Part shown: one piece after another, positions 6,790 to 56,806 of the stretch
How positions within the stretch are numbered: position 1 is the stretch's first letter
How the letters are laid out: each line of letters begins with the position of its first letter
Position numbers and translations under genes: made by a program
Origin: Polytrichum commune
Lineage: Eukaryota; Streptophyta; Polytrichopsida; Polytrichales; Polytrichaceae
Direction of reading: 5' to 3'
DNA length: 64,000 nucleotides
Assembly (NCBI GenBank): GCA_950295325.1
Contig: OX485808.1
Coordinates: 12,092,501 to 12,156,500, forward strand
The notes under the pieces: generated by a model
The model's input: only the letters and a program-made list of their open reading frames with translations
Told to the model about the DNA's origin: nothing
Database searches by the model: none

Positions 6790-7790
6790 CACATTCCCCA
6801 AATCTCTTGCTGGGCTTGCACTTTAAAGGATATTAGGTGGGTGTTATTCGCTTGCCTTTTTTGCATGTTTCTCCAACTTCTACCAACTAGATTCCCGAAG
6901 CGGAACTCGTGTTGCATTTACAGCGAGTCTACAACGAAGCATCGGCAACAATCGGATTGAAGATCGGGTCTCCTCTTGTTTAGTTACGAATGTTGTCAAA
7001 AGTGCACACTCAATAACTACACTAAATGTGATATTTAGTGTTTGATTATATTTAGTGTTGTTACCACCCTATCCTGCTCAACACTCATTTTTAATTCTTT
7101 GGCAACACATTCCTCAAATTTCTTGCCGGGCTTGCACTTTAAAGGATATTATGTGGGTGTTATTCGCTTTCCTTTTTTGCATGTTTCTCCAACTTCTACC
7201 AACTAGATTCCCAAAGCGGAACTCGTGTTGCATTTACAGCGAGTCTACAACGAAGCATTGGCAACAATCGGATTAAAGATCGGGTCTCCTCTTGTTTACT
7301 TACGAGTGTTATCAAACGTGCACACTCAATAACTACACTAAATGTGATATTTAGTGTTTGATTATATTTAGTGTTGTTACCACCCTATCATGCTCAACAC
7401 TCATTTTTAATTCTTTGGCAATTAGTGTTAGACATGAATGTCTAACACATTCCTCAAATTTCTTGTTGGGCTTGTACTTTAAAGGATATTATGTGGGTGT
7501 TATTTGCTTTCCTTTTTTGCATGTTTCTCCAACTTCTACCACCTAGATTCCCACAACGGAACTCGTGTTGCATTTACAGCGAGTCTACAACGAAGCATCA
7601 ACAACAATCGGATTGAAGATCGGGTCTCCTCTTGTTTAGTTACGAGTGTTATAAAAAATGCACACTCAATAACTACACAAAATATGATATTTAGTGTTTG
7701 ATTATATTTAGTGTTGTTACCACCCTATCCTGCTCAACACTAATTTTTAATTCTTTGGCAATTAGTGTTAGACATAAATGTGTTGCTACC
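6790..7790. repeat. three-copy tandem repeat, period 316-340 bp
   Basis: The anchor CTTTAAAGGATATTA occurs at 6821, 7137 and 7477, so the periods are 316 and 340 bp. Each copy runs on through TTTTTTGCATGTTTCTCCAAC, GTGTTGCATTTACAGCGAGTC and TATTTAGTGTTTGATTATA. The third copy's longer period comes from an extra block containing TTAGTGTTAGACATGAATG. Short open frames inside are shared by the copies because of the duplication and show no family resemblance. Related, more diverged sequence occurs at about 16940-17360. Confidence 0.85.
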
Positions 7791-21862: not shown

Positions 21863-24800
21863 CTAGCCATTGCTTTGTGATCTATCATCAAGATAGGAAT
21901 CAGCTCTTGAACTTTTGCCATACATTTGGACGAACTCCACTAACTTCATATTATAAACAGTTGAAGGAGTAAAGTCGAACGGTAAGCCCCAATCTGACAA
22001 ATGGGCTTCCTCCTTCCAATGTAAATCCAAGTTCTGCAATAACACATCCTCAATATACTCCATGAATACTCCAGACATGCGGTGCAAAACAAGACCCTGG
22101 CATCCGGGTCTATAGTCGTGATATCCACCAGAAAAAGTCGTGGACTTCACCAGTTTCAAGGTGAAATTGGTGAACTGTATGCCATTCAAAAGACTGTCTT
22201 TGGAGCCTGACAGAAAAATGCCATTTTCTGAGGTCGCCGTAATGTTGACAAAGTGGACTCCATTGACAGAGCCCACCTTGATAGAATTATTTCGAGGACA
22301 TGCGGATATGTAAATAGGTTCAGCAAGACCCCACCATGAGGGGTCATAGTAGCGAGTACTCATCTGAATGTTGGTGAATGTGACGTTGTACACGCTACCT
22401 GCTCAAGAAAAATAAATAATAATGAAGAAACCATACAATTCCATAGCTGGTGGTGTCTACGTTGCTTGCATATGTGAGGGAGCAATCAACTAAGCCCCCC
22501 CCTTTACACTAGAGTTCGAGTTGAGAGATTGATTTTACAATTCTCAGTAGTTTGATATTTGGAGTTGACAAGTTTTCATGCAAAGTTCAAACTATTGAGA
22601 GCCTGATCAATCTTCGAGCCCTCAATAGTTTGAGGAAGTGTAAAGTGGTCATGATCAAAGTAAGACATCAACCGGGGAATGATACTAAAAAATGAAGCAT
22701 GCATGACAAACCAAAGAATCATTAAGAGCCCATTGGCTTCGGGCCTCTGATGGAAAGCAAAGAATCTAAGCAGAAAGCGTGTGTGGTTAAGTTGAGGAAC
22801 TTGCATTAGCAAACCATTGCCACTTTTGCAATACCCAAAAATATGATTGTTTTTCATTGGGACATTTAACCTTCATCTGGAGTTCCACAAAACTGCAAGA
22901 CTCCCATTGTATTGTGAGTTATGATATATCTGCAAGAATATTGAATGTAAGTATGGATGTGGTACCTTCATCACGAAGTTGTATTCCTAATCCTCTATGG
23001 GACTCCACAATGGTTAGGTGCTCAAAATGTAAGTTGCGAAAATCCCAGCTCGACTTACTCCCGAGTTTCACTGCAGATGACTTTGTTCGTATCCAACAAT
23101 TTGTGACGGTCAGGTTGTAGAGAGGACCCTCATCTGTTTTAGGACATATGGCATCATCACCCGTGTCAATGTGACAGTTTTGGATCACTGTGTTGTTGGA
23201 AGACTGGATGTCGATGCCATCATTGTTTGGGCTGTTGAAGTCCCCATATATCGACACATTGTCTATGAAAACTAGTTCCGACATAACAATGTGCAAGCTG
23301 CAATTCCACGGCATGCCTCAATACATCAGATCAAAGCAACCCAAAGTTACAGTTTGAGGGCGAACATGGAGGCTAACATATGAGGGCCTCTCTAACTTAG
23401 ATCCCAAATGAGAGGGCCTATATGATCTTTAATAAGTAAGAGATTCTTTACTTTGTTAGCGAATAAGATATACATGTGAGCTCCGATAACTATGAGTAAA
23501 ATGGCTGCAGCCTCAATTTGGATTTGCTAATCATCTCACATTGATCGCATGTTTCATATCCTAGGAGAAGCGGGTGCGGAGCTAAAAGTGCCAATTTTAG
23601 GCCTGCTAACTTTAAACCCTAAAACGTAAATTCTAGCCCTTCCATAACAACAATAGCAGCACAAATTCCACAACCTCTTAGCACCACGAGCTTTTGCAAC
23701 CTCGCCAAACAACAACAACAAGACGAACACATGAATTACCACCAATATGCCGGCTCTTGAAGAGAAACTAGGTCTCTCATAATAATGTGCAAGCTGCCAT
23801 GCTCAAGCTGTCAAGGAATGCCTCAACCCAGATGCACTGTTCGAGGGATAACATGGAGGTCAGACAGGCTAAACCCTAGCCCTTCCATAACAACAACAGC
23901 AGCAGAAATTCCACAACCTCTTAGCACCACAACCTTACATTTGCAGAACCTCGTCACAGAAACAATAAAAAGACGACCACATGCAATAATTCCATGACAA
24001 CAACATCACAAATTCTACGACCTCTTAGCATCACAACCTTTTGCAAAACCTCATCACAGTACAGCAAAAGACGACCACATGAAATCCACCAATACGCTAG
24101 CTCTTCAAGAGAAATATTCCAGATCTGACATATGAATGTGCAAGGAATGCAATCCAAGGAATTCTTCAACCACATCGGATCAAAAAGCAACCGCAGTTGG
24201 TGCGATCGAGGAAAAATATGGAGCCTATACAGGCTAAACCTTAAACCCTAAACCCTAGCTCTTCAATTACAACAACATCTCGAATTCCACAACCTCTTAG
24301 CACCACAAGCTTAAATTTGCAGAACCACGTCACAGAACCACCCAAAAAAAGGCGACCACATGAATTGCTAAACTTACCACCAATACGCCGGCTGTTGAAA
24401 AGAAACATTCCAGACTGCCACATTCTTGCAGTTGATGAATCCCACCAACCGCGGCCTACACTCATCCCCCACACAATCCCCAGTAACGTTCCAACTCACC
24501 ATGATGTTCTTCTCCTCCTTAAACTCCGTCACAAACTTCAACCCCTGCCCATTCACAGCTCCCCCTCCGGTTATAACTACATTCTCAGCGTCCTCTGCAA
24601 GAATGGTGTACCATCTTGAACTTCTATTTGGGAAATCTCTTTGATGCTGGCTGCCTAAGATTGTCGCCCCTTTCGCAATCCATAAGGTGATGTTGGTCCT
24701 CAAAAACAAAGTTGCGGTCAGGTAAGTGCCTGGGGAAATGTAAACCACTCCGCCCCCCATGGTGGCACATGCATCAATGCTTGATTGTATGGCATTTGTG

Positions 24801-25018
24801 TCGTACCCTTTACCCGTGCCGGTGGCTCCGAAGGCCGAAGCTCGACAAATAGGGCGATCATCTTCCGAGTTTGGGTTCTCTTCGACTGCGAGCGAATTTG
24901 AATGAATCTGGAGCGGGGAGATTAAACCAGCAAGAGCCAATAGCAGAATTCCTATAAAGAAGTTGCGGCAAATGTTGTAGGGGTGTGAATGGAGTAATTC
25001 AAACTTGAGGATAGCCAT
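21863..25018 (-). CDS. GH28 polygalacturonase-like pectin hydrolase
   Basis: GH28 enzymes hydrolyse pectic polysaccharides in the cell wall. Three exons (25018-24378, 23297-22966, 22398-21863) join in frame at GT-AG sites to give 502 residues, from an ATG at 25018 to a TGA after SQSNG. A hydrophobic stretch at residues 18-36 is a signal peptide or anchor. The right-handed beta-helix core carries NNDGID at 238-243, DTGDDAIC at 258-265 (catalytic Asp pair 261/262), ESHRGLGIQLRD at 312-323 and STRYYDPSWW in exon 3. The usual G-H-G is S-H-R-G here and the usual R-I-K is Q-L-R. This pattern is typical, as I recall, of the divergent Arabidopsis At3g57790-like clade rather than classical endo-polygalacturonases, so true polygalacturonase activity is unproven. 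Introns are 1080 and 567 nt; intron 1 and the 5' flank are built from duplications of this gene's own sequence. Confidence 0.9.
23281..24470. repeat. tandem duplications of exon-junction modules in polygalacturonase intron 1
   Basis: The block around the exon 2 acceptor (AATGTGCAAGCTGCAATTCC at 23288) recurs diverged at about 23782 and 24127. The block around the exon 1 donor (ACCACCAATACGCCGGCT near 24376) recurs at about 23737 and 24087. The joining block (AACAACAACA, then CCACAACCTCTTAGCACCAC) occurs at about 23645, 23890, 24010 and 24270. Intron 1 therefore looks like tandem copies of a module running from exon 1 end to exon 2 start. CCCTAAACCCTA telomere-like words at about 24243 sit in the unit. 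Confidence 0.75.
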
Positions 25019-26060
25019 TTTTGAGAACTCTCAAGCTCGGAGTGGCAGGGCATGCACTCAATTCTTGTAAATTTTGAATTGGCTTCCCAGAGCAAAATTC
25101 CTACAAAGAAAGGAGCTACAACTGTTACAGAGGGCGCCAATGCGGTAACCCAATTTTGAGAATGCCCATTTTTCTGAACTCTCAAGTTTGGAGTGATGGG
25201 AAATACACCCAGTTCTCCTAAACTCCGAATTCCGTGAATCGGATTACCCACACCAGAAGCCCTAAAAGAAGCTGCTGGAAATGTTACAGGGGCGGCAATT
25301 AGAACAGCCTATTTTCAAATCCCCTCTCAAGCCTTGGAGTGACAAGGGATGCACCAAATTCTTCTAGTTTCCGAATTCTGTGAATCGAACTTCGCAGACA
25401 AGCAAGGTTATGCACACAAGTGAGAGCTCGCGGAAGCAGAGAATGTGATATTGGGCTTCAATATGGGCAATTATTTGACAGGTCGCAAATGCGGCAACCC
25501 AAATTTGACAACGCCCATTTTCAGAATCTCTCAATCAGGGAATACAACCAGTTCTTCTAAATTCCGAATTTCGCGAATCGAGCTTCCCAGACCAGAATCA
25601 CTAACAGAAGCTCCTGCAACTGATCCAAAGGCGCCAATGGGGTAACCCAAAATTTGACAACACCCAATTTCGAAACCTCTCAAACTTGAAGTGACAGAGG
25701 ATACAATCAATTTTTCTAATTTCCGAATTCCGTGAATCGAACTTTCCAGACAAGAAAGCTGTTGTAAAGTAAAGAATCCTCCAAAGCAGAAGAGAATATG
25801 ACGTTGGGCTTCAATGTGGGCAATCAAGGACAGGTCGCAAATGCGGCAACCCAGCTTTGGCAACTCCTATTGGTCAGAATCTCTCAAGTTTGGAGTGACA
25901 GGGGATAAACCCAGTCCTACATTCCGAAGTCCGTGAGTCGAACTTCTCAGACGAGCAAGTTGTTGTAACTCACTCAAGTAAGAAACTCTACAAAACCGAG
26001 GACTCATGTAAGTAACGGCCTCTCCAAAACAGAACTCTCCGAAGCAGAAACAGGAAGTTA
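25019..26060. repeat. tandem copies of the polygalacturonase start region in its 5' flank
   Basis: A 145-205 bp unit is repeated upstream of the ATG. Its anchor is the reverse complement of the start region (CCCATTTT- or GCCATTTT-like), followed by CTCTCAAG.TTGGAGTGACAGGG and TTCCGAATTCCGTGAATCGA. Anchor points are about 25018 (the true start), 25169, 25312, 25518, 25667 and 25869. Steps of about 150 and 205 bp mostly alternate, giving a higher-order period near 350 bp between 25169, 25518 and 25869. At 25086-25170 the copy also resembles the signal-peptide codons (a frame reading FFVGILL against FFIGILL in the gene). Confidence 0.8.
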
Positions 26061-26306
26061 GGCTTCAATGTGGGCAATCAAGGACAAGGGTTCTTGGCGT
26101 CGATGTGAAGACAATCGACAAGGACAATTATGGTCGAGCATTTGTTGCTTGGAGTGTCGCAGAAGAAATGGCGTTGTTGTCCGGAGGAAGGAGACGAGAA
26201 GAACGCCAGGACTTCATTCGTTTTATCTTCATCCATATGTCCACCACTTTCATCCAGCGTTAATATTGGTGGGGCAACTTTGTCTTTATTGGTTGAGGTT
26301 ATCAGT

Positions 26307-26357
26307 ATGCTGGATGAAAGATGGTGTTCAGTATTAAATCCATCTTTCATCCAGCAT
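26307..26357. repeat. perfect 18 bp hairpin
   Basis: ATGCTGGATGAAAGATGG at 26307-26324 is the exact reverse complement of 26340-26357, with a 15 nt loop. It is a short, perfect stem; whether it functions in RNA or marks an insertion is unknown. Confidence 0.75.
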
Positions 26358-26519
26358 TCTTACCTTGGAATTGTAAATCAAATGATTTGGTGGAGATTAA
26401 TGACAATGGCCTTCCTTCTAATCAGATGGATGTGGAGAGAGGAAATTATTGCAAATGAGCATACTTCTCATCCATTCAACATAAAAACACGACCCCTTAC
26501 AAAGTTGTTGTTGATTTAT

Positions 26520-26690
26520 CTCAAATGATCTTCAATAGACTAATTCAGGATATTTAAAACTAATTTCCTTGTCAAATCAACTAAACAAAGTAACCTCAAG
26601 GTTGTGTATTATTTCACAATATTTTATGTTGGGTGAATGAGAGGTATGCTCATTTACATCGATTTCCTCTCTCCTATAGATGTAGTCTAA
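26520..26690. repeat. dispersed repeat shared with 48930-49080
   Basis: The blocks TGTCAAATCAACT, A.AGTAACCTCAAGG, a TATTATTTCACAATATTTTATGT-like block, GG.TGAATGAG.GGTA and TTCCTCTCTC occur in the same order at 48950-49075. Each copy lies upstream of a minus-strand gene or candidate gene. Ends are not defined. Confidence 0.55.
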
Positions 26691-27869
26691 AATTCATATG
26701 GTTTGTACTGTAACTCTATTGTAAATGTGAACTCTAAATAAGGTTTTTAATTCAAATTTTATGACTTATTTTTTGAGGTGGCATCCTCCTCCCCCTTGGG
26801 CCCTACACACACACAATACACATTTAAGAGTTGACGGGACTAAGAAATCATAAGAGTCACATTGGCAAAGTGCCCAACTCCCAACACCAAATTCTTAATG
26901 CTACATTAACGGGTTTAAACCCTGATCACCCTTGATTGTATCTAGAAATCTGCCATTCTAAATGTGTTTGTGTGTAATATCATGCATGCACTAGGGATCG
27001 TTGTTGTTCCTTGATAGAAGGAGAAGTCCCTCTTGATAAGGAAAACTCATCTCTTTCCAAAATTTATCATTACTAGTCAGGACTTTTCATTTTACTCACA
27101 ATACCTCACTAGATGTCATGTTCTTTAGTGTTGCGCAATGCATACAAGACAAGAACTCCTATCAAGATGGAACCTCTCCCACTAGTGTGGACTAGTTGCT
27201 GGTCCTAGTGTGGGCATGGTATAAGCTTATTTCAAACTTTAATGACGAGTCACTATAATGTGCTTTATCCATTCATAAATATGCTCATGATTAGTAGGGA
27301 AGTGATTCTGGAAAGGATAACCTTTACAGTATCTTTTTCCTTGTCACACCCCCAGCCTCAGGGTGGGTTAACAAAGGCCCATTTCCAGCCGTCCGATCTT
27401 CTCATCTCGAAACCTCAACCGTCAGATCCACCCTCACAACTCCTCACCACAACCGCAACCGCGCGGCCAACCCCGTCCACCACAACAACCGCCCGATTCC
27501 GCCAATTCCTAATGTCAGCCGTAGATTAACGATGGCGAGCACAAGCGCGCGCGGAGCCAAGCAGACTTGAAGGAGATCATCCTCTCTTCGTAGCTTTAGC
27601 ACCGTGGAGCTCTCTCCTCGAGAATCTATCGTCGCTTAAACCCTGATTCTCAATTTCATCACAAAAATTTCGAGGTTTAGACCCCATTTTGAAGGTTTTT
27701 GAGCCGAAGCCAGGAAGATTGGCAGGATAGGTTGAATGTGCTAAAGTCTCTCGGTGAGGAATATGTTGAGGATTGAGGGTTTGCTGAAACTCAAGAGAAT
27801 TGGTATGGATTCGGTTCGGTTTTAGAGTTTTTGGCATGAAGGAGGGACTCTTTTAACTTTGCCGTATCG

Positions 27870-30800
27870 ATGGCCAAGGCACTTGCAGTCTCGTTCTGCT
27901 TTAGCTACCGGTAACGTCTTTTTTTCTGTTCCTTTTGCTATAGGGAGCAGGACATGATAAACACAAGTACATCCTTATTTTGTAAGATTGAATTTGGTAG
28001 GTCCATATCCTTTTGCAATTTCAACCCCGCAGCTCAATGTTGTACCAGGAAACATATTACACCACTACACACAGCATTTGTCATATGTCCAGGGTGAAGC
28101 TTTTATAAAACGAAATGTTTGTTATGATGATATGCTATGGGGAATTGTTGGATTCTACCATCTGCATTTGGAAATAATAGCTGAAATGGGATTTTTCTTA
28201 TTCAACGCCTTTCCTTACTCTTAAGACTATGCTCCTGAATTTCGTAGATCAGTTGCCAACATTTAGGCGCTACAAGGTATCTTGGAAGGTTGGGCATAGC
28301 TGCAGCATAGGGGTTTCTCAAAACAGCCTTTAATTTATAGTTTCACATTGCTTGGTGCTTCCTCTGCGTATGTGAGTCACAATGTAGTAGAATCACGTTT
28401 GGGGGTTTAAGACTGCTGCAATGTGTATGAGGGAACCCTAAGGGTTTAGGGTTTATGAATGGAGGGTTTTGGGAGTCTATGTGGAAAGAATTTTATTGCT
28501 TCTCTGGTGGGATAGTACCAAAGTAGGAAGTTGAGGGATGCTTTGGCCAAATGAAGAGGGTTAATTAATGTAAATGCCACTGGGATGAGAACCTAGGTTT
28601 TGTGTGGTGATAAAATTAGGATAGTATCCTAACGCTAATATATATATGTATATATCTATTTTTGTGGTCCGCAGAGAGTTTACTCTTGCTCGGCAGTGCC
28701 GTCAGGCAGCAGTTGAGATTGGAGTGAAGGATTTCTTGCCCTCCCGCTTGATACTTGTTCGAAGTGCGCACGAACGTGAAGATAGACCAGGATTGGGAAA
28801 ATGTAGTTTTTCTCGCACACCTCAAGGATGTCAGACATCCTCAAGTTTCTTCACAGGCTGTCTAGATAACCTCAGTGCAAGGAGCAGCAGGTTTGTTCTT
28901 GGACTTCTTGAAGTTTTGTCCTCAGGGAGTGCACTATTCATTAAAACCAAGCATCATGTGCGTGCATGCCCCTTATTAAAATACCCCTGTATACATTTTA
29001 TTTTTGCTAAAATCAAGCAATATACTTACAAATCTCATTGCTTCAAAATACATTTCCATACGTACACAAGGGTCCAAAAACAAATACAGAAATTGTATAT
29101 AACATGTGTACAAATGTTTGGAAATGCAAAAATATGGCCCTATTATATGTATAATATCAAATCATGGATTTTTAGTTATAAAGTCGTTACTTAGTGGATG
29201 AAAAAACACATGATTCTTGGTCCAGGTCTGACTTGAACACGTAAACGCGTAAATGCGTACTTTACATATATTTTTCTATAGCCTCATGTATATCTACTTC
29301 TTGCTTAATAGCAATATGTCTCTTGTACGTACATTTTGTACATGCTTGTTTTAAATAATACCCCTTTTGTGCACCCACGTGTATAAATACAGTACTTGAA
29401 CAGTGCACTCCCTGGGGTTTTGTCTTGCAAATTGTAGCTCAATCCATAATAGAGCCTTCTACCTTGAGATGACAGAGAAGTTTTCTTGGGAACGGTAGCA
29501 GGTTGTGGGATAATGAATGTTGGATGTCATCACATTCTACAGTTAAGATTTTGTGTCATTTTCATGCAGCCATTTACAACGTCTTAAGCAAAGGAAAGCA
29601 AGGAATGAGGAAGGTCCACTTCTGGACTGGCAGTGGTCACCTTCGGCTAAAATGTAAGGCGCAACAGTCGTTAATTGCTGATCACCTGTACACTGCACAC
29701 TATAAATGTGAATGTGATTGTTCCTGTATGAACGTCCCTCAATTTAGCACAAAATCTATACTTGTCGATGTCCATCAGTTCAAGTAAACACAGAGCTGCT
29801 TCTCATTTTTCCCCAGGGTATGTATGTTGAGCTGAATCTTTCTTGTATTTGCAGAGGTTCACAAGGTAAATCTGAGATTGAGGGTAATAGCAAGGTGGAT
29901 ATTATGGATGATTATGATTATGATGATGATGATGATGAAAGTCGCGACCGGGTGCTAGAGGAACAGTTTAATCGATTTGCCATAGCTATGGCTCTGCAGG
30001 ACAATCAGATGGCTGAGCGAGTCATGAAGGAAATGGGGTAAGTTACTATCTTAGGGCTGCAAATCATTAAATTCCTTGACATGTGGACTGCCAACTGTGT
30101 GGATTAAGATTGACAGTGTGCATCAATCTCAAGAGAGTTACATGAAAGAGTTGGACCTCCCTGCATGACAATGTAGGGTCATCTTTAGCTTTGAACTTGG
30201 ATAATCTTTAACTACTTCACGTGGCTTTGTTATCAAAGTCCAGGTTTTAAGGTTCATAGACTTTTGTATTGATGTTGAAGCTGCATACTTGTTGTACTGA
30301 TTCTATACATGTCATTTTATTTTACTGTGGAGTATAGGAATCCTGTGAAGATGGTGGACATGAAGAATCTGGTGAATGAAGTAAATGAAATGCAAGCACA
30401 GCTTGAAGAGATGTACAGGTATGTAACCGAGCTAATAGAGGAAGGAGACAAAGATACTGCACGTGAGATGATAGAAGCCAACCACGAGGTTATTGTGGAG
30501 CAGCTTGAATCTGGGTATCAAGGCATGGAGCAAGTTGCTATGCTGGACATTTTGGCCCAGCTGCGCATGAGCTTACGTGATTTTGAGGAAGCAGAATTCC
30601 TGCTGGACCAGGTTTCTAGTCATAGACCCATACGTCGAACTGTTTTCTAGTATTTTAACTTATATGTTTGATCAATGCTCTTTGCAACAAGGCATCTGTA
30701 TCTCCACAAGCAGATGCATATGTTTTGTCTTACGGAAGTGTGTTATTTCCATAGTGAATGCGTTCTTAACTGTGAGAGTTGAGCCTGAAGGGAGGATATT

Positions 30801-43698: not shown

Positions 43699-44164
43699 TG
43701 AAATACTTACAAAACTTGGTATATTGCGTATCCTAACATTTCTGTACTAAAACATTGTCAAAAAATTATTGAAATTTGGATAAAAAATAACATAGTAAGT
43801 GACAATAGTTGCAACATTGTCATCTACAATAACCAAAAAAATTACAAGGCGGAATGACAAATAATGTTAGGTTTACAGGTAGTGTTGGTGACACTAGAGG
43901 ATGGCTTACAATGAGTGTTGAGCAAGACAAATAGAAGACGTGGTGACACCAAGTTCACTATGTAGTGTACACATTATCATGACGTAGTTCCTTAAGACTT
44001 AAGTTAACTTACCGCCAGACTCAATTGGAGCGCAGACACAGCTGCAGACTGGTAAATTATACAGACTCACCAAAGTCAATGGTGGCCTTTGTCTGCACAA
44101 TCTAAGTTACAGTAAAGTACAGACTCACCCACCTCACTTATGTGCAGACGAATATACTGATAAT

Positions 44165-46125
44165 GTCTCCCACCACTTTGACGACCACAGCAGCAGGTTA
44201 TAAGACCTTGGGATTCAGTTGCTCATTCCATTTCAATTCCAACCCCATCTCTCACCTCGTCTTCAGCTTTGAAGTTCACGTAGTTCGTCCTAGAGTAGCT
44301 GCGCTGTAGCCAGCCTGATGAACTCTTCAAGGGGGTCTACACTTTGAGAGCATGTCAGGCTCATGACCTTGTCGTTGCTGCTGCAGGTCTCCTCTTAGAA
44401 TGACTTTGGCTTCTGCGCTACTTTGTGAGAAACAGCAGGAAAACTAGTCATGTGGCCTTTCCAATTTAGTTCGATGGTCTTTTAGTCCAGTTAACACATC
44501 ACAAGTAGTACAAGACGTGTGTGTTGATGCATGTGGTACATGAAGACCCTGTGCACACATAAGATCGATCGTGTCTCCCTCCACTCTGACCACAGCAAGT
44601 TATGACGCCTTGGGATGGAGTACTTGTCCGTTCCATTTCATTTCCACCCCATCCCTCACCTCATCTTAAGCTTAGAAGTTCGTGTAGTTCCTTGCAGCTG
44701 GGTAGCTGTTATCCTGCTGATTTCTTTAAGAGGGTACTAGTCAACATTGAGAGCTGCACAGGCTCAGCTTGTTGTTTCTGCATGTCTCTTCTAGTATACG
44801 CTTGATTTATTGCTTTGTGAGAAACAGGAGAAAAATTTCATGTGACCTTTTCTAGCTGGTTAGATGTTCTTTGGTCCAGTTAACGCATCAGGATTCAGAA
44901 GTACTACAAGGTGCTTTTGTTGATGCGGTACATGACGACCCTGTCCAAACATAAGAGTATGTCTCCCTCCACTCTGACCACAGCAAGTTATAAGGCCTTG
45001 GAATCGAGTTGTTGTTCCATTTTATTCCAACCCCATACCTCATCAACTGCCCTCACCTCATCCTAAACTTTAAAAAGTTTGTGTAGTTCCTTGCAGGGTA
45101 GTTGCTAGACTGATGATTTGTTTAAGGGGTACTAGTCAACATCGAGAGTACAGGCTCAGCTTGTTGCTGCAGGTCTCCTCTAGTATAAGCTTGACTTAAT
45201 TACTTCCTGAGAAACAGCAGAAAGTCATACAGTGGCCTTTTCTAGCTATTTCGATGTTTCTTTAGTCCAGTTAATGGATCAGAAGTAGTTTAAGACGTTT
45301 TCGTTGATGCGGTACATGAAGACCCTGTGCTGTCAAATGATCATGTCTCCCACTACTCTGACCACAGCAAGTTATAAGGCCTAGGGATCGAGTTGTCCAT
45401 TTCATTTCGTTTCATTTCGTTTCCAAGCCCATCGCTCAGCTCATCTTAAGGTTAGAAGTTCATGTAGTTCCTTGAAAAATAGTTGCTAGCCTGAGACATT
45501 GTGAGCACAGGCCCAGCTTGTATCCTGCGTGTGTGTTTGTGTTTCTGTGTCTGTGTGTTTTGTTTTTCTTTTTTCTTTCCTTCCGAGACATATGACACAC
45601 ATTTATTCCAGCACAGGCTCAGTTATTGTTGCTGCAGGGCTCGACTCTTTTCTTATATTAGCTTGTCTTACGTATAATCATGTTTCCCTCCACTCTGACC
45701 ACAGCGAGTTATAAGGCCTTCGGATCGAGTTGTCCATTCCATTTCATTTCCAACCCCATCCCTCACATCATCTTAAGCTTAGAAGTTCGTGTAGTTCCTT
45801 GCAGGGTTATAGCTGCTAGTCTGATCATTTTTTCAAGGGGGTAATAGACATTGAGAGCAAACTTAAGGCTCAGCTTGTTTGTGTATGTGTGTGTGTGTGT
45901 GTGTGGCTTTTTTTCCCTTTTAAAAAAAATTATTTTCAAAATTTTCCAGCACAGGCTCAGCTTGTTGCTGCTGCAGGTCTCAACTCTCTTCTTATATAAG
46001 CTTGACTTATTTACTTTGTGAGAAACAGCAGAGAAAATAGTCATGTGGTATTTTCTAGCTAGTTCGATGTGGATCTTTAGTGCAGTTAACACATAAGGAA
46101 TAGACCTGCAAGACCCGTGTGTTAA
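44165..46125. repeat. five-copy tandem array, unit about 340-408 bp
   Basis: Each copy opens with GTCTCCCTCCACTCTGACCA followed by CAGCAAGTTATAAGGCCTTG. Anchors are at 44165, 44573, 44961, 45345 and 45682, so the periods are 408, 388, 384 and 337 bp. Every copy continues through AGTTCGTGTAGTTCCTTGCAG, CAGGCTCAGCTTGTTGCTGC and TGTGAGAAACAGCAG. Copies 4 and 5 have GT-rich microsatellite insertions at about 45523-45560 and 45882-45904. Divergence is moderate. No copy has a conserved long open frame, so it looks like local non-coding satellite. Confidence 0.85.
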
Positions 46126-50684: not shown

Positions 50685-51689
50685 TTGCAAAAGTCTTATA
50701 TCAAATGGCTATGGGCACCGTTTGGATTTGCGAACCACCAACTAGAGTTTAAACATGGTATTTGTGAAAATGTCACATGGCATGCAAAAATGTCACAAAT
50801 GCCATTATCTTGAATACAATAATGGCTTGCTTGAATTGGTCTTTGGAGGCAGCTTTTGCCAACTACATCTACGAAAGTCTTATATTTGCAAAAGTCTTAT
50901 ATCAAATGGCTATGGGCACCGTTTGGATTTGCGAACCACCAACTAGAGTTTAAACATGGTATTTGTGAAAATGTCACATGGCATGCAAAAATGTCACAAA
51001 TGTCATTATCTTGAATACAATAATGGCTTGCTTGAATTGGTCTTTGGAGGCAGCTTTTGCCAACTACATCTACGAAAGTCTTATATTTGCAAAAGTCTTA
51101 TATCAAATGGCTATGGGCACCGTTTGGATTTGCGAACCACCAACTAGAGTTTAAACATGGTATTCGTGAAAATGTCACATGGCACGCAAACACGGGGCGA
51201 TCACACCCCCTTACATTTCATAGCCGCGTGCGATAATAGTTTGCTACCCTATATTACATGCCATAGATAATTTTTAAAATTATGATATTTTTTCTACATA
51301 CATATAACCATTGATAATATCTTTTGTATATTTTTTTGAAATTTTTAGTCATCTTCATTTTTTGTAGTAATTTGTTTAGTTCAATGTTGCGTCATTCTAG
51401 TTAGAAACGGTATGTTTTATTAAAAAAAAAAATCATCAAATTTGGTTACCTATTTTTACTATGTAATAGATACTATTTATATCTACTCATGAAAAAAAAT
51501 CTTAAACTTTTGAACCATTTTGGTGATGCTTTATGTAAAAAGTAGATTTTGTTTTATCGCACGTGGTGTTCAACTTGACAATGAAGTGCACCCCCCGGGC
51601 ACGCAAAAATGTCACAAATGTCATTATCTTGAATACAAGAATGGCTTGCTTGAATTGGTCTTTGGAGGCAACTTTTGCCAACTACATCT
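50685..51689. repeat. 201 bp tandem repeat, three copies, the third split by an insertion
   Basis: Copies 50685-50885 and 50886-51086 are almost identical (one visible difference, near 50800/51001). The third copy runs 51087-51190 and resumes at 51608-51689 after a 407 bp insertion. A 63-codon frame appears in both intact copies at 50755 and 50956 and, partly, in the third. This reflects the duplication; nothing suggests it is coding. Confidence 0.92.
51191..51597. mobile_element. 407 bp MITE, likely MULE-type, inserted in the 201 bp repeat
   Basis: The 10 bp GGCACGCAAA flanks the element on both sides (51181-51190 and 51598-51607). The uninterrupted copies of the 201 bp repeat show the empty site (GGCATGCAAA once). 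The ends form imperfect inverted repeats of about 50 bp: CGGGGCGATCAC then CGTGCGATAA on the left, and CGGGGGGTGCAC then CGTGCGATAA on the reverse-complemented right. The interior is AT-rich with no coding potential. Confidence 0.8.
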
Positions 51690-52935: not shown

Positions 52936-55423
52936 GTGCAAAGTTAGAATTCCAGTAGTAATCATCTCACTTGAGCCAACAAGGATGTAGCAGATTGTCA
53001 TCCCCATGACAACAAGGTTTTGTCTTGTTTGTCAAAATTGGGTAATCTAAGGGCCACTTTATACATGGGGCCGAATTGAGGGCCGGTCAAAACTCTCAAA
53101 ATTTGGGCCAATAGGATTGCTCGATTTCATCAAATTGGGCCCAAGGGCTTTATACTAGGGATTGACCCGAACACTCACTCATCCCATGTGGCGTCCTAGG
53201 TGGTATAATTTTGGCGCCAAATGGGGCCCTAGTGAAGAAATCAGGACGAGCTTTTCCTCGGCTCGAACTCTCATCTGGGGCTGGATTGAGCTCATCCGTT
53301 GGATTAAGCTCATCTTGTTGATAAATCTTTAGGGAGTTTATTCTTTTCCCCTCCCTGGTGAAGATAGAGTCAAGTGTGGAGGGGCCATCAAGTTTTTAAA
53401 TAAAATTATTGTATTCCTATTATTGAAAAGTTGACATTGTACCTTTGATTGAGAGGGACGATTGTGAGATGAAACAAATTCTCATATTTGATGCATCTCA
53501 CTTTGGTTTGTCCCATGATGATTCTCCTTTATCATGGGACATACAAACTTCCCATCTATAACATTATGACCCATGGGATTTTAGGGGTATGTCCTTCTTC
53601 CCATGGGACATGGTTGGAAGTTGCTTGTGGTTGTAGTCGGTGCACAATATTATCTTTTTTACCCCTTCGATCATAATTTTTTTTTGTTTTTTGAATTAAT
53701 GATACCGTGTAGTTAATTAGAAAAGAATTGTGCACTGAATTTATTGTGGGATATGTTTTTTTTTTTAAATCCCCCCCCCCCTGAAAGCCCCATTCAAAAT
53801 CACCGGAAAAACACATAGTGGCGAGCGCCATAGGAAAGAGAATGATAAACTACACAAACAAAGAGACCACAAGGGCACAAATGCAGGCACAAACCCTAGG
53901 GATGACAAAGACAAAACATCTCTTACAAAATTATTCATCATAGTGGATGAAAATGAACCATTTTTCATTTGTCTACGCCTTCATATGGGAATCAACTATC
54001 ACATGTAGGTATGGTTTCCTCCCTTTCTTTTTTCATGTCCTTTGTTATTTTTGAAGTTGAAAAAACCATGAGCAATAACTAAACCCCCTATATTTTTTAT
54101 ACACATGACTCTCATATTATATTTGTGGTTTATTGTCCCTAAAAATGTTCAAATATTTATCTTATATGAATAAAAGGTGCCCTATGTTGCATCACACGTG
54201 GGTTTATAGCTTTTCTAAGTGACCCACCTAGGCCTCAAGTGCACATCCCTTATTACTATTGGACAAGTGGTTAGTTTAAATATACTTAAATGTCAATTCA
54301 CCTTGTATTAATTCCATGTTTCATATCCTATGAGAAGTGGGTAAGCTAAAAAAATAAACTAAAAAAACCTTAAAAGACCACCCAACTTGAATGAAGTGGA
54401 TGAGTCAAAAATACTAACCATTTAAAACCATCTAAGGTATGCCAAATAGTAGTAGTAAGGGAAATAGTCAAGACTTTAGAAAAATTACTAATATCTTAAG
54501 ATGAATCTTTAGATTATACCTCAAATTAGTACAGAAAACCTGGAAGATCACAACATGTAACTAGTTGGACTTGGAAACACTAAAATTTTGATAGATTATG
54601 CTTAAAAATTGTTGTTGCGACTAATTTTGTTTTGAAAAATAGTAAGAGTATATAAAGCCGTCAATTAAAAAACTTAAGTGTCAAAAGACATGTTGAAAAT
54701 TGAGTAGCCCGTCAAAAAGTTGATGATCTAAAAATCGACCGTTGCATGAAAGATGAAACCCTTTGTCAAAAATTTACACTAAGAAGGAGGCTGGAAACCA
54801 AGACAAGACACAAAATAAGGACATGAACTTTGCCACCTCTTTATTGCAGACTTCCTTCACTTTTGTAAAACACCATCATCGATGACAATTGGGTGTCAAT
54901 AGTATGGACCCAACTTCTTCGTCATAAGGTGTTATCTAAGTAAGATGTTATCTTGGAACTATAGTTACCAACGAAGCATGTTACCTCGGAAGAATCAAAC
55001 CTTCCATAGTAGCCGACTAAGCCGAGTGGAAAGTTTTAATGAAAAAGAAGCGACCTGTCGGTCTCGTGCTCTCTCGCTCATAGAGTTTCACCCATCATTA
55101 CTCTCTATCATCTTCTCATATTTTTTTGGTAACAACTTAAAGTTTCCCAAAATGATGTTTTGTGAGGAGTGGAGAAGCTCTCCTGGAGACGCGTAAGTTC
55201 ACAGTCGGCCAATCGGAAATTTGAGCCCAATAATGTGTGCACGGTCACTGCAACGAAGAACAAAATGGACTCATCAGACCGACAATGTCTGCCATCAGAC
55301 CTCAGACATTTACTCCTTACATCTCTTCAGGTTCTGTAAGCTCCGAAATCCTGTGGAGGGGTTTCAATCTTCTGCACCAGCTTTAAGTTATACATCATCT
55401 GCAATGCTCCCTCACTCTTTAAG
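52936..55423. other. intergenic DNA, no gene seen
   Basis: A short palindromic cluster of ATCATGGGAC and CCCATGGGAT words lies at about 53510-53615. A poly-C run is at about 53771-53780. Open frames at 53556-53968 (minus) and 54945-55541 (plus) have no family resemblance. Confidence 0.4.
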
Positions 55424-56100
55424 GTGGCCATTGCCATTTAAACAAACATGCGCTGAAAGTCGACAAAAGCCTCCTGTAGAGCACTTAGGGTCCGTTATTT
55501 ATTGCCTTTCTTTATTTCCGGCCTTCTTTTTTTTTGAATGATTGAGAGGCTCTTCACGGTGCAGTAGCACCTCTATTCAACTCAAGAATTATCCCTGAAG
55601 CTTGTAAGTAATTTCGACCAAAATTAGGTTCATGTGGTTGTTGTGACGTTACAGAAAGATTTCTTACTTATGGCAGGTTACAGATTCCCAAGTGTTTGGC
55701 ATCAAATGCCTCGTGTGTGGAGATTATAATTTTTTGTAACGGCTTTAATTTCTGTACTCCCTTAGTGTTGTGGCCATTGTCATTCTCTGGAGAAAAACGC
55801 TCTGGATGTTGACAAAGCCTCGCATATGAGCACTTAGGGTCGATTGTTTTTTTCTCTTTCGTTATTTCCGGCCTTCTTTTCTTCAAGGAACGCGAGTATT
55901 TCGCAAACCAAGAGGCTCTTCACAGTATATCAGGATGCGCACCTCTACTTAAACTCAAGAACCGTCCGTGAAGCTTGTAAATAAGTTCGACCAAACTGTA
56001 GACTCATGTGCGTTACAGAGATTTCTTAGTTGGGGCAGTTTACAGCCTCCCAAGTGTTGGACATTGAATGCCTCTTTAAAGGCAACTAGAATTTTTTTTG
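55424..56100. repeat. two-copy tandem repeat upstream of the copine gene, period about 346 bp
   Basis: GTGGCCATTG at 55424 recurs at 55770. Both copies continue through GAGCACTTAGGGTC, TTATTTCCGGCCTTCTTTT, GAGGCTCTTCAC, AAGCTTGTAA.TAA.TTCGACC, AGATTTCTTA and CCCAAGTGTT. The copies are diverged by perhaps a fifth. It probably lies in the promoter or 5' transcribed region of the copine gene. Confidence 0.75.
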
Positions 56101-56806
56101 TCACATTTGAAACACGTCGCGGCCGACATCAGAGCGCCTCATCAGGACCAGGTATCCTTCACCCTTGTCAATTTACTGCTCACAAAGTATTCCCAAACTC
56201 CTGCAGCAGTTCCTATGATCAATTTCACCCTATTTTATGCACCAAAACTGCATTTTAAGTTTCTGAAAGACCATTTACACTCGCTCGAACTTGTGGTTGT
56301 GGATTTTTTTAAGGCCTGCCTGTAACCCTAACTCTGTTATTTCGCATTGAAATTCTTTAGTGTTCCCACATAACACTATAATGTCTAGCACTAGTACCGA
56401 GAGGCGTGAGCAAGTTTTGTATTTGTAGTCAATATGTATTATGCTTTTTCTACCAATATAGATCACAATGACAACACAACCACGTTTTTGCAATTGTAAA
56501 CATTCCTTCCCTTATGTAAGCTTTCTGGAAGACCTGGGCTCGCAATGGAAGCATGGCCACAACGAATTAAGTGTTATGCTTGGCCCTTCCCAGGTCAAAA
56601 TTGGGTGGACCAACTACAGTCTGGAATTTTACAGAATTTGTGTCTGGTCCAGTTGCATATATCATGTCATTGGAACAGCCCACCTCCATACATTGAAGTG
56701 ATCTCCCTACTTTTTGTTTAGGAGCATTGTCATAGATGTCAGGGTAATTATTGAAAGAGTGGCCTTTAGGTACAGAGCTAGGAGTTGCATTGCAGCAATT
56801 AACAAA
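56101..56806. other. 5' flank of the copine gene
   Basis: The copine frame stays open upstream to about 56714. CTACTTTTTGTTTAG at about 56708-56720 is a good splice acceptor, so an upstream exon, coding or not, may join here. I could not find an upstream MGNC-type start. Confidence 0.4.

Follow-up and report, generated by a model that had tools for sequence, protein, structure and literature searches.

Results

Gene model and family

In the window, a 64 kb stretch of DNA from Polytrichum commune, a gene of the polygalacturonase (PG) type lies on the minus strand. Its three exons (Table 1), with borders that are a reading of the sequence, are joined at GT-AG borders into an open frame of 502 amino acids. 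From 25018 onward exon 1 reads as a single open frame; an in-frame stop lies close upstream, the frame opening at 25030. The 502-aa product matches the Pfam family Glyco_hydro_28 (PF00295) with an E-value of 2.5e-20 and 73.3 bits against a gathering cut-off of 22.9. Among sequences of solved structures, 13 distinct ones match it at E up to 0.001, the best being 5olp (E 2.4e-23), which is deposited under the name “Pectate lyase”, followed by 3jur. The first-pass annotation had named the gene a polygalacturonase with a signal peptide, and both parts agree with our results: the Pfam match supports a GH28 (polygalacturonase-type) gene, and the N-terminus MAILKFELLHSHPYNICRNFFIGILLLALAGLISPLQ looks like a signal peptide, as judged by eye from its hydrophobic core. 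The likeness to GH28 polygalacturonase-like proteins (PF00295; 5olp, 3jur and the plant ADPG2 7b8b) is a family match above the curated cut-off, whereas the duplication described below is a feature of the present locus and not of the family. In a viral contig collection, seven stretches fitted a pattern used to look for relatives of the PG protein, and none was confirmed by tblastn.

Table 1 Features of the PG locus (positions of the window)
Feature	Position	Strand	Remarks
PG exon 1	25018-24378 (641 nt)	minus	open spliced frame; borders read from sequence
PG exon 2	23297-22966 (332 nt)	minus	open spliced frame; borders read from sequence
PG exon 3	22398-21863 (536 nt, including stop)	minus	open spliced frame; borders read from sequence
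Innermost unit, coding part	24937..25018	minus	codons 1-27 and first base of codon 28, MAILKFELLHSHPYNICRNFFIGILLL; self-BLAST; shuffle test
Innermost unit, leader part	25019..25093	minus	72-81% identical to the five upstream leaders
Whole 5' array	24937..25983 (outer end approximate)	minus	six ATG-centred copies
Outermost fragment of long-unit motif	26046..26086	minus	41 bp, 88% to 25793-25832
Upstream ORF in A1, relic of coding start	25125..25169	minus	MGILKIGLPHWRPL; 14 codons, then TAA
Upstream ORF in A3, relic of coding start	25471..25518	minus	MGVVKFGLPHLRPVK; 15 codons, then stop
Second tandem array	23613..24423	minus	most of intron 1 and 3' end of exon 1
Composite pseudo-exon b	23740..23793	minus	54 nt, keeps the frame; preceded by AG and followed by GT
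Composite pseudo-exon a	24087..24144	minus	58 nt, breaks the frame; neither AG nor GT retained

Tandem array at the start codon

The proposal of the first-pass annotation that the PG coding start is itself the innermost unit of an upstream tandem array was confirmed by a self-BLAST of 24900-26100, in which off-diagonals at offsets of ~149, ~349, ~499 and ~649 bp link the coding start with the upstream units (71% over 507 bp, E 7e-75; 61% over 924 bp, E 4e-46). The off-diagonals run into the CDS as far as 24937, the first base of codon 28. Codons 1-27 reach a local score of 32 against 25019-26090; 200 dinucleotide shuffles averaged 11.3 and peaked at 18, none of them reaching 32. The remaining exon 1 scored 17 against the upstream DNA, which was equalled in 22 of 200 shuffles and is no match beyond chance. 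The repeat therefore ends inside the presumed signal peptide.

The copies lie head to tail and are named here by their homologue of the ATG: A0 at 25018 (coding), A1 at 25169, A2 at 25312, A3 at 25518, A4 at 25667 and A5 at 25870. The count of six upstream copies given earlier holds for the array in all, but only five lie upstream, the sixth being the coding copy, and a fragment is found farther out (Table 1). The earlier span of 25018-26060 was right in setting the units head to tail upstream of the gene but misses that the array begins inside the CDS. Pairwise identity among the six copies, aligned by their ATG, is 0.51-0.80. The steps between ATG homologues are 151, 143, 206, 149 and 203 bp, and this alternation of ~150 and ~200 bp gives the higher-order period near 350 bp that had already been noted; an extra motif of ~50 bp, containing TTGCCCAYATTGAAGCCCAA, is held by the two long steps. 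The closest pairs are A5-A3 (0.80) and then A4-A2 (0.75), the pattern expected under duplication of dimers.

Tandem Repeats Finder, run on 22000-29000, missed the 5' array and reported only a 1.9-copy stretch in intron 1. No further copies of the 5' array were found elsewhere in the 64 kb window at E 1e-2. Just upstream of the array lie two inverted repeats with what we would guess to be a MITE-like look, one at 26434-26674 (53-nt arms, 85%) and one at 26304-26360 (21-nt arms, 95%).

Decay of the upstream copies

Some copies were said to keep an ATG-like triplet, and the start codon is indeed kept in two of the five upstream copies: A1 and A3 have ATG, A2 and A5 have ATA and A4 has TTG. By drift, 1.2 of 5 would be expected to retain it at an identity of 0.62, a value chosen from the BLAST figures, and about 1.3-2.3 of 5 at the measured coding-part identity of 0.63-0.77. 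The 75-nt leader is 0.72-0.81 identical between copies. Compared with A0, 19 of 25 indels are not multiples of three, and differences at codon positions 1, 2 and 3 number 29, 48 and 44, with no excess at the third position; both sets of counts are rough, the alignments of A2, A3 and A5 holding five to eight gaps each. The decay of the copies thus fits drift, given the two ATGs kept, the frame-breaking indels and the lack of a third-position excess.

The peptide FFVGILL reported for one copy is present in A1 (25169), but in a frame other than that of A1's own ATG. In A4 the own frame has no stop in the 90 nt that were translated, with a +1 and a -1 indel offsetting each other; we take this open frame as chance, though it counts against reading the copies as relics. 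All in all, the upstream copies look like decaying relics of the coding start that would act at most as upstream ORFs and not as working alternative starts.

Signals for transcription and splicing

Between 25019 and 26250 the minus strand carries nine ATGs, of which the one at 25053 begins a frame of 33 codons that overlaps the main start and the one at 25922 stands directly before a stop. A search of the same strand from 25019 to 27000 found no TATAWA motif. A scan of 27000-24990 for donors at most one mismatch from GTAAGT gave five sites (26657, 26500, 26363, 25973 and 25605), all of them 5' to the ATGs of A1 and A3. In 26300-24930 there are 16 acceptor-like AG sites, each with 12 or more pyrimidines among 17 positions, including 25102, 25263 and 24953; several of them stand at equivalent places of the array units. 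A leader intron across the array, e.g. from 26363, is possible, and the PG gene may conceivably have variable transcription starts.

The array in intron 1

Intron 1 (24377-23298, 1080 nt) is itself largely a tandem array (71% over 381 bp at an offset of 350). Its units span the end of exon 1 (CCGGCGTATTGGTG), the intron and the start of exon 2 (CTTGCACATT), so a duplication crossed from exon 1 through the intron into exon 2. Since the units include both exon edges, there are two internal sites at which the start of exon 2 is fused to the end of exon 1 (pseudo-exons a and b, Table 1). If pseudo-exon b were spliced in, the frame would be kept and a product of 520 residues would result, with CLHIIMRDLVSLQEPAYW added. 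Duplicated units that cross an exon-intron boundary, as found here, are expected where introns are gained or grow by tandem genomic duplication. The 5' array and the intron array resemble one another no more than chance allows (score 18, equalled in 91 of 200 shuffles). A stretch in the last copy in intron 1, 23407-23612, is 70% identical to 18491-18274 in inverse orientation and is perhaps a dispersed element inserted in the array.

Local duplications across the window

A scan for same-strand self-matches of at least 80 bp with starts within 1.5 kb of each other (E 1e-8) gave 11 local direct-repeat loci in the 64 kb window and none in each of five Markov controls. Seven of the 11 are head to tail (6790, 23613, 24937, 44141, 47907, 50685 and 55349), one is nearly so (1111, gap 48 bp), and the other three are spaced pairs (14012, 42971 and 60425). 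The longest local tandem array of the window is 44141-46103, with a period of ~400 bp and 66-82% identity. A recent tandem duplication lies at 50685-51190 (offset 201 bp, 98-99% identical), and the array at 6790-7781 (offset ~316 bp, 92-94% identical) is young next to the PG arrays. At 55349-56097 a diverged duplication (offset 362 bp, 68%) stands ~600 bp upstream of the copine open frame at 56702. Compared by coordinates, with open frames standing for the genes, only the two PG arrays touch open frames named by Pfam (PG, subtilase, TPR and copine frames); the open frame 30279-30650 has no Pfam match. We infer that local tandem duplications form readily in this genome and are retained, seemingly as a habit, and that two of them overran the edges of the PG gene.

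Discussion

We propose, with a probability of roughly 0.8, that an old local tandem duplication copied the PG start region outward, that the upstream copies drifted as relics and that a like process took place in intron 1. A segment of ~150 bp that began in the 5' leader and ended near codon 27 would have been duplicated head to tail, by slippage or unequal exchange, and later rounds would have duplicated dimers of ~350 bp. Coding would have been kept only in the copy that was still joined to the gene body, while the others drifted into the 5' flank, two of them still carrying short ORFs descended from the start. In intron 1, the segment from the end of exon 1 through the intron to the start of exon 2 would have been duplicated likewise, by which the intron grew and the two composite pseudo-exons arose. 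In favour of this explanation, the evidence is that the homology stops inside the CDS at 24937 with the rest of exon 1 unrepeated upstream, that in intron 1 a like event caught exon edges in its units, and that the window holds 11 local direct-repeat loci against none in each of the five controls.

The upstream units may nevertheless act, with transcription beginning inside the array or farther out and the upstream ATGs serving as upstream ORFs that lower PG translation, a possibility that we regard as real but unlikely. The two ORFs of 14 and 15 codons have A at -3 and G at +4 and encode peptides resembling the gene's own N-terminus, and the nine ATGs upstream include the one with the frame overlapping the main start. 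However, shared descent explains the likeness of the peptides, the number of retained start-derived ATGs is near the drift expectation, and no TATAWA motif was seen between 25019 and 27000 on the minus strand. Self-similar upstream ORFs setting translation, together with a 54-nt exon that is sometimes spliced in as an in-frame duplication of 18 residues, would make one duplication habit tune both amount and form of the enzyme; we consider this a long shot.

The direction of copying could also be the reverse. A pre-existing tandem array would then have supplied the start codon and the first ~27 codons of PG in place of an earlier signal peptide. Between copies, the leader is no less similar than the coding part, and the 29/48/44 distribution of differences lacks a coding signature, which would fit a repeat recruited as gene start too and counts against outward duplication. 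Secretion is expected to be ancestral for the GH28 family, in which case a signal peptide was already present, and the intron 1 array shows outward copying from real exon edges. We regard recruitment of a repeat as improbable.

The first-pass annotation had suggested alternative first exons, in which several units would be interchangeable starts of transcription and translation. Every unit does have a leader and DNA resembling the start, and stretches of acceptor type are found repeatedly among the units. Against this, the frames opened by the ATGs of A1 and A3 run for only 14 and 15 codons with no GTAAGT-like site (at most one mismatch) after them down to 24990, so that neither is seen to join the gene body, and exon 1 itself is open without a break from 25018, a stop in its frame lying close upstream. 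The suggestion is not supported, and such exons are very improbable. Chance similarity was rejected, with 0 of 200 shuffles reaching the score of the 5' array, and an assembly artefact is at odds with copies that differ by 20-49%, unlike collapsed or repeated reads, so that the odds of either are negligible.

Both arrays can be set beside known systems. Minisatellite-like or higher-order local tandem arrays occur in promoters and 5' leaders. The PG array resembles these in its head-to-tail copies upstream of a gene and in its dimeric higher-order period; it differs in that its units take in the start codon and the beginning of the signal peptide. Among the open-access titles and beginnings of abstracts examined, none describes an upstream array containing the start codon. 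The nearest described case found there is the potato RdRp gene, in which a new intron arose from a tandem genomic duplication that crossed an intron-exon boundary (PMC4974935). Common to both is a local tandem duplication in a plant gene with a unit that crosses an exon-intron boundary together with its splice signals. In potato a new intron was detected, whereas in PG the copies seem to have enlarged an intron 1 that already existed; the PG start-codon array, by contrast, has no splice junction.

In conclusion, the locus is best read as two old local tandem duplications, each at a different edge of a PG gene, ordinary in mechanism and neat in outcome. It is a clear case of a gene in which two functional edges, one at the start codon and one in an exon-intron-exon stretch, were overrun by local tandem duplications that left decoys behind, namely surplus start codons and a surplus exon. 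The locus shows how local duplication can give rise to upstream ORFs and cryptic exons as by-products.
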